Below are positions 42,159-43,385 of a stretch of DNA of 64,000 nucleotides, piece by piece. Where the stretch lies: NCBI GenBank assembly GCA_949282965.1, contig CASDQW010000003.1:1-64000 (forward strand). Reading direction: 5' to 3'. Made by a program: the position numbers and the translations under genes. The notes beneath the pieces are model-generated. The model was not told the DNA's origin and searched no databases. It was given only the letters and a program-made list of their open reading frames with translations. The first letter of the stretch is position 1. Each line of letters opens with the position of its first letter. This stretch comes from an uncultured Lentisphaeria bacterium. GTDB lineage: Bacteria; Verrucomicrobiota; Lentisphaeria; Victivallales; Victivallaceae.

Positions 42159-43385
42159 TCATGCTTGTTTCTTCAACTCCGACGCGGGCACGGTTTTTCC
42201 GGTATCGATCATGACGTTCCGGCGCTGGAACGTCGGGAAGTCCAGATCTTCACCGTTCCAGATCACCGGCGTGGTCTTATCCATCATCCCCTTGGACAAC
42301 GTATCCAGCGCGAACTTCAACTGCTCCACCTCCACCGCGGGTTCCACCGCCGTCTTGCGCGCCGCGCGACCTTTCCGCGCCGAACCGCCGGCCAGGGGAC
42401 GCCCCACCTCTTCCGCGGCATCGAACTTGATGGTCAATGCACACAGCTGCACCCGCTCGCCGAACGCCGCCTCGGTCGAAGCCCCCGCAAACAATTTCGC
42501 TTCCGGCCGGACAAAAGTCCCCGCCTGTTCCAGTACCTGCCGGGTTTCGCCAAGCGCCAGCGAATCGCCGCCGATCAACGAAAAAATCACGGCATCCGCA
42601 CCCGTCAGCTTGTCCACGCCTCCCAGCAACGGCGATTGCAGCATCCTTTCCAACGCCAGTTGACAGCGTCCGGTACCGTCCGCCGCCTCGCCGTCCGCGG
42701 CAATCCCCACACCGATGCTGCAGAAGCTTTTCCGCCGCCGCAACGTCGCCACCAGATCAGTAAAGTTCACCGCCAGCAAATTCCCCTGCCGCAGCACCGC
42801 GGTCAGCGCCAGCGCCGTCCCGGCAATCTCGCGATCCGCCAGCGCAAAAGCCTCCGCCAGCGGCGTCGTCCCCGGCAACACGGAAAACAACAGATCGTTC
42901 GGCAACGTCAATACCGCATCCGCCATTTCCAGGAGTTCGTTGCGCAGCGTCTCCTCCGCCACCCGCCGTTTGCTGTGTCCTTCCAGGGTAAACGGCAGCG
43001 TCAGTAGAAACAAGGCCGGCAAATCCAGTTTCCGACAGACGCTCAGCACAATTCCCGCTCCGCCGGAAGCCGTCCCTCCCCCCAGGCCGCCCACCACCAG
43101 CAGCAGCGGCGTTCCCGTCAGCAGCGCTTCCAGCGCCGACCGTTCCCGGGCCAGTGCCCGCTGCCCGTCCAACACATTGCCGCCGCAACCGCGTCCCCCG
43201 CGCCAGTCGGCGGCAGCCAGCAGACGATTCTCTGCCGGAATCGGACAGCTCTCCAGGGCCGATCGATCGGTATCCACCGCCAGCAGACGCAAACGTCCCG
43301 GCGCCAGTTTTTCCAGTGCACCGACCGCCCGACAACCTGCGCCGCCCAGTCCCAATACTGTAATCGGAGCCTGTTCCATGGTCAT
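42159..43385 (-). CDS. ftsZ: Divergent cell-division GTPase FtsZ
   Basis: 408 residues. The overall FtsZ order is clear: T1 'LGLGGAGCRA' (11-20), T4 'GGLGGGTASGGA' (99-110) with the GGGT core kept, 'LPNDLLFSVL' (161-170), then a GTPase-activating domain up to about residue 330. The C-terminal peptide 'LDFPTFQRRN' (about 381-390) matches the FtsA/ZipA-binding motif, followed by an 18-residue extra tail. T7 reads LAVNFTDL: aligned to E. coli NVDFADV, Asn207 is Ala and the catalytic Asp209 is Asn, with Asp212 retained. T3 (GCGGNVLDGQRA) is also unusual. It follows ftsA by 21 bases. Confidence 0.85.
   Translation of the reverse strand: MTMEQAPITVLGLGGAGCRAVGALEKLAPGRLRLLAVDTDRSALESCPIPAENRLLAAADWRGGRGCGGNVLDGQRALARERSALEALLTGTPLLLVVGGLGGGTASGGAGIVLSVCRKLDLPALFLLTLPFTLEGHSKRRVAEETLRNELLEMADAVLTLPNDLLFSVLPGTTPLAEAFALADREIAGTALALTAVLRQGNLLAVNFTDLVATLRRRKSFCSIGVGIAADGEAADGTGRCQLALERMLQSPLLGGVDKLTGADAVIFSLIGGDSLALGETRQVLEQAGTFVRPEAKLFAGASTEAAFGERVQLCALTIKFDAAEEVGRPLAGGSARKGRAARKTAVEPAVEVEQLKFALDTLSKGMMDKTTPVIWNGEDLDFPTFQRRNVMIDTGKTVPASELKKQA

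Follow-up and report, generated by a model that had tools for sequence, protein, structure and literature searches.

The window, a stretch of 64,000 nucleotides from an uncultured Lentisphaeria bacterium of the Victivallaceae, carries an ftsA-ftsZ pair on the minus strand. FtsW/RodA and transpeptidase genes are also present. The ftsZ reading frame starts with an ATG at position 43385 and ends at 42159, the stop codon included. The ftsA gene is located upstream of ftsZ in 47 of the 54 loci of the family to which the window belongs. The genes and the elements of ftsZ that are discussed below are as follows:

42159..43385, minus strand: ftsZ, 408 aa, with no other tubulin-family gene detected in the genome
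43407..44678, minus strand: ftsA, 423 aa, 21 bp upstream of ftsZ (PF14450, 55 bits; PF02491, 38 bits)
43335..43352, minus strand: T1 loop, GLGGAG
43260..43274, minus strand: T2 loop and start of helix H2, DTDRS (residues 38-42), with Asp38 in place of E. coli N43, Asp40 corresponding to D45, which is kept, and Ser42 in place of Q47
43059..43091, minus strand: T4 glycine-rich nucleotide-binding loop, GGLGGGTASGG
42969..42971, minus strand: codon of Lys139 (R142 in E. coli, R143 in S. aureus)
42756..42773, minus strand: T7 (synergy) loop, AVNFTD (residues 205-210), corresponding to E. coli NVDFAD (207-212)
42765..42767, minus strand: codon of Asn207 (D209 in E. coli, D210 in S. aureus, the swinging catalytic aspartate)
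42756..42758, minus strand: codon of Asp210 (D212 in E. coli), the one T7 aspartate left
42219..42254, minus strand: C-terminal conserved peptide GEDLDFPTFQRR, putative FtsA-binding

Both domains expected of an FtsZ were detected above the curated Pfam cut-offs, the tubulin GTPase domain (PF00091) at 65.3 bits against 33 and FtsZ_C at 38.6 bits against 27. Among proteins of known structure, its best matches in sequence are FtsZs without exception, and so are the top matches (E 4e-33, TM 0.86 over the target) in a Foldseek search with an AlphaFold2 model of the protein, whose mean pLDDT is 83 with most of the core above 90. The NCBIfam equivalog model of FtsZ, TIGR00065, gave 146.6 bits, about half of its cut-off of 295.2. 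Since this cut-off is passed by none of the 198 genomes of the class and by 34 of the 388 genomes of the phylum, the failure reflects divergence of the group and not a different protein. The C-terminal peptide contains EDLDFPTFQRR, in which D380, D382, P384, T385 and R388 are invariant in 20 relatives. We conclude that the window protein is an FtsZ by descent, as is evident from homology, fold, pairing with ftsA and the C-terminal peptide. The first-pass annotation, made from the sequence alone, had named the protein FtsZ and had reported GGGT in T4 and an FtsA-binding C-terminal peptide, all of which stands. It had also described T1, T3 and the C-tail as unusual, which is true in comparison with E. 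coli only: the GCGG of T3 and the tail pattern ...SKGIF.NT..GEDLDIPTFQRR...ID.G are usual in the order and the class.

The T7 loop has been described as the half of the FtsZ active site that does not vary. The window sequence GNLLAVNFTDL aligns without gaps with E. coli PGLMNVDFADV, placing A205, N207 and D210 opposite N207, D209 and D212. One of the three canonical catalytic residues, D212, is thus kept, and the other two are replaced (N207A and D209N), exactly as had been read from the loop LAVNFTDL at the outset. No other aspartate falls into the 209 column, so the alternative alignment named at the outset as a refutation does not apply. In the same frame, close relatives have an aspartate in this column (APDFGD, AADFGN), which, together with the ungapped alignment, rules out a misalignment. 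Three species of the genus (those of the window, G004 and G005) share LAVNFTDL, encoded with different synonymous codons, and the presence of the same loop in three separate assemblies rules out a sequencing or assembly error. Between the three congeners, the dN/dS of ftsZ is 0.054-0.065 at a dS of 0.45-0.71, which indicates strong purifying selection on the gene. This value of ca. 0.055, the intact frame and the conserved C-tail rule out a pseudogene. Since D209 is lacking in none of 55 FtsZs from outside PVC, the D209N substitution of the window is beyond chance.

The roles of individual interface residues are taken from published S. aureus filament structures, on which the argument about the interface rests. 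In these filaments, the catalytic water is positioned by D210 (D209 of E. coli), which swings. The site is shaped by D213 (D212) together with R143 (R142). K+ is held across the interface by N208 (N207) and Q48 (Q47), and the waters of Mg2+ by N44 (N43) and D46 (D45) (PMC8936486). Assembly of S. aureus FtsZ is stopped by each of the D210N, N208L, D213N, D46A and R143Q substitutions, and R143K lowers the GTPase activity (PMC8936486). In the window protein, the interface changes are N43D, Q47S (helix H2), R142K (H5), N207A and D209N, while D45 and D212 are the only listed residues that are unchanged. The K+ site formed by N207 and Q47 is therefore absent, as is R142, these positions being occupied by A205, S42 and K139. 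The inventory of the site in the first-pass annotation was correct for T7 and missed the partner changes N43D, Q47S and R142K. Judging from the aligned residues, these three changes together remodel the subunit interface. N43D is found in all 54 proteins of the family, in 34 of 37 from the rest of the order, in all 27 from other orders of the class and in none of 55 from outside PVC. Of 54 family members, 2 still have Q47, versus 53 of 55 proteins outside PVC. Tubulin also has an aspartate at the N43 position of T2.

The distribution of T7 residues was followed in a 200-sequence alignment of E. coli FtsZ with those of the class and phylum, to which 80 more were added from a search with patterns that excluded T7; the sample consists mostly of metagenome assemblies and covers the phylum unevenly. 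Outside PVC, N207 is kept in 54 of 55 proteins, and D209 and D212 both in all 55. Among 70 Verrucomicrobiota FtsZs from outside the class, 13 have both aspartates, 42 only D209, 15 only D212 and none lacks both. The corresponding numbers for the 54 proteins of the window family are 20, 16, 17 and 1. N207 persists in 8 of 54 family members, in 3 of 37 proteins from the rest of the order and in none of 27 from other orders of the class (family f21 apart). Apart from a few isolated occurrences, D209N is seen in genus g11 and the window genus only. On an FtsZ tree built without the T7 columns, the state of D209 changed at least 21 times and that of D212 at least 25 times; the numbers for a second tree, which had been thinned, were 19 and 26. 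In most FtsZs of the phylum, one of the two catalytic aspartates is lost, and loss of N207 is common to nearly the whole class. The T7 change had initially been presented as a peculiarity of the window protein. Of its parts, D209N alone is local, and the loss of N207 and of one aspartate are class- and phylum-wide, respectively.

Several tests for coupled change were run on the trees; tests of this kind readily give false positives through single large clades. Losses of the K+ ligands Q47 and N207 were coupled on a 278-tip tree (LR 14.7, p 0.005) and on a second tree (p 0.015); outside Lentisphaeria alone, the coupling was not significant (p 0.35). Coupling of N43D to the loss of N207 was unsupported (p 0.086 and 0.45 on the two trees). 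A rule that at least one of D209 and D212 must be present could not be taken as proven (p 0.037 and 0.081 on the two trees, independent pairs not significant); the pattern is suggestive, and marginal once kinship is allowed for.

The survey also revealed a number of other T7 variants. The loop reads NLDFSQ, NLDFAT, NLDFST or NVDFTA in Opitutaceae, where D212 is lost. Proteins of Opitutaceae and relatives (L092-L121, L232-L236, L260 and L274) are often without D212 and keep N207 and D209; these mostly pass the canonical FtsZ cut-off nonetheless. In L110, L119 and L184 (RIGFDD or RLGFDD) and L220 (RLGLDD), D209 is replaced by glycine and the neighboring A211 by aspartate, so that the carboxylate may have shifted locally inside the loop. 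The sequence L239, titled Akkermansia muciniphila, is probably a misnamed MAG, since its T7 and T2 are the same as those of the Pedosphaera MAG L241.

In family f21 (L064, L065, L068-L070, L072, L074 and L075), the ftsA-adjacent FtsZ is without T7 or without all catalytic residues, and several f21 genomes that are more than 90% complete have no match to the FtsZ model and retain a second tubulin-like protein. FtsZ replacement may be in progress there. This second protein of the tubulin/FtsZ superfamily, ca. 365 aa long, occurs once in each of about 59 Lentisphaeria genomes (families f2, f6, f11 and f13-f24; loci L091:718-1812 on the minus strand, L087, L089, L073 and others) and is missing from the window family. 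Mean column identity in its own alignment is 65%. It reaches no curated Pfam or NCBIfam cut-off, its best PDB profile match being TubZ/RepX (4ei7, E 2e-5), and may represent an undescribed family.

Compared with the canonical FtsZs of E. coli, B. subtilis and S. aureus, the window protein shares the fold, T1 and T4, FtsZ_C, the ftsA-ftsZ pair and the C-terminal peptide, and differs in T7 (AVNFTD versus NVDFAD), at N43D, Q47S and R142K and in its TIGR00065 score (146.6 versus 295.2 bits). S. aureus D210N (PDB 7oja) is a laboratory version of exactly the substitution that the window carries naturally, and E. coli D209A affects the same residue. These mutants, canonical in all other respects, do not assemble or form aggregates, whereas in the window the substitution is accompanied by other changes at the interface and is maintained by selection. 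E. coli D212A and D212G (ftsZ2) share with the window protein the loss of one T7 aspartate, in the reverse arrangement: they keep D209 and lose D212, as many Verrucomicrobiota do naturally (e.g., NLDFAT and NVDFTA of Opitutaceae). Both have slow GTPase activity, ca. 7% in the case of D212A (PMC8142252). D212G was reported to be functional in division, and D212A together with FtsA completes extra septa (PMC4383033); vortices of D212G form in vitro and are static (PMC7320174).

Within the same phylum, the FtsZ of V. spinosum is essential by TraDIS in an organism that divides by binary fission (PMC12283558). It was called divergent in 2007 and is 673 aa long, with T7 unmentioned in the text of that report (PMC1845146); it differs from the window protein in its long C-terminal extension. 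FtsZs of family f41 (e.g., L190), which are about as long, read RMGLAD in T7. Another natural FtsZ without NVDFAD, that of N. maritimus, has no recognizable T7, has also lost its GTP-binding motifs and does not polymerize in yeast; it comes from an organism that has the Cdv system as well (PMC3684127). In contrast, the window protein keeps its T4 motif, and no substitute is known. The accessible literature, with few subscription journals among it, contained no report of the loss of T7 catalytic residues across Verrucomicrobiota, nor any on the GTPase activity, assembly or in vivo behavior of an FtsZ of the class.

The reading that we favor, with a probability of roughly 0.6, is that the window encodes a functional FtsZ, the sole one detected for division, with a rebuilt intersubunit GTPase site that would hydrolyze GTP slowly, independently of K+ and with one aspartate. 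Filaments would still assemble on GTP by way of T1-T6 in the lower subunit. The attacking water would be held by Asp210 (D212) in place of the missing D209, and the T2 aspartate (N43D) would reach into the Mg2+ shell with its carboxylate from the opposite side of the interface, replacing the contact made by K+, Asn and Gln. The resulting slow GTPase and slow filament turnover would be enough to place septal wall synthesis. That function is kept is indicated by the dN/dS, the preservation of T7 through synonymous changes, the adjacent ftsA and the FtsW/RodA and transpeptidase genes. The class-wide changes at N43, Q47 and N207, set against near invariance outside PVC, indicate that the site was remodeled as a unit, as do the coupled losses of the two K+ ligands. 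The near-constant presence of one aspartate agrees with this reading, and the behavior of the E. coli D212 mutants indicates that slow hydrolysis can support division. Since D210N, N208L, D213N and R143Q stop assembly in S. aureus, the window protein may be worse than slow unless compensated. Compensation for D209N appears likely by analogy with these mutants. N43D, a candidate for it, is class-wide and predates the genus-level D209N.

The first-pass annotation held that either slow hydrolysis or compensation elsewhere must be invoked. We agree, as no second FtsZ was found that could rescue the function. Such a gene would exist if the window protein were a paralogue and the canonical FtsZ were encoded at another locus. 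A PF00091 search of the window genome, which is 86.6% complete and so leaves this reading some room, found no second Tubulin/FtsZ gene. The 97% complete genome of the congener G004 has one such gene only, and each genome in the rest of the family has one FtsZ or fragments of one. A distant tubulin-family protein does exist in other families of the class, but it is absent from the window genus, and the window copy is the one adjacent to ftsA. We therefore consider a paralogue very unlikely. Even less credible is a decaying gene or a sequence error: a deleted T7 and an undetectable FtsZ in part of f21 make decay possible in the class, but the dN/dS, the intact frame, the same T7 in three separate assemblies and the conserved C-tail speak against it here.

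The two other alternatives concern the rate of hydrolysis. Other changes could have fully compensated for the different T7, restoring hydrolysis and treadmilling at a normal rate. The concerted changes at T2, H2, H5 and T7, the strong purifying selection and the essential FtsZ of V. spinosum, which divides by binary fission (PMC12283558), would fit this, yet among the residues gained by the window genus alone, none accounts for the missing D209, and each such mutation singly abolishes assembly of S. aureus FtsZ (PMC8936486); on balance, full compensation seems rather unlikely. An arginine or lysine at E. coli position 68 (T3) was considered as a substitute charge and rejected, because arginine is present there in 18 of 55 canonical FtsZs. 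Conversely, the protein may bind GTP and assemble as a scaffold with no useful hydrolysis, turnover being due to exchange or to other proteins. Two missing T7 residues in combination with R142K would agree with this, as would the static vortices of D212G (PMC7320174) and the functional extra septa made by D212A expressed with FtsA (PMC4383033). However, D212 is kept, and at least one aspartate is present in nearly all relatives, pointing to a need for some catalysis, and treadmilling is required for ring condensation in B. subtilis (PMC8079713). We regard such a scaffold as improbable.

Given that similar erosion of the site is found throughout the phylum, either the chemistry of FtsZ can be rebuilt or fast splitting of GTP is less essential for division than thought. 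How far hydrolysis-driven treadmilling is needed by dividing cells is still debated on the basis of point mutations in model species. Repeated loss of an aspartate in the phylum, under purifying selection where this was measured, constitutes a natural experiment on that need. The phylum also presents a graded series: a canonical T7, one aspartate, no T7 and no detectable FtsZ. Planctomycetes and Chlamydiae, other branches of the same superphylum, divide with no FtsZ at all. Tentatively, and with more doubt than confidence, we suggest that Verrucomicrobiota may not need the catalytic dyad and may use a one-aspartate, often K+-free interface. In Lentisphaeria, a carboxylate once contributed by T7 in the upper subunit would now come from T2 in the lower one (N43D), with filaments that are slow or independent of hydrolysis, and such an FtsZ could be a surviving intermediate toward the FtsZ-free division of Planctomycetes and Chlamydiae.
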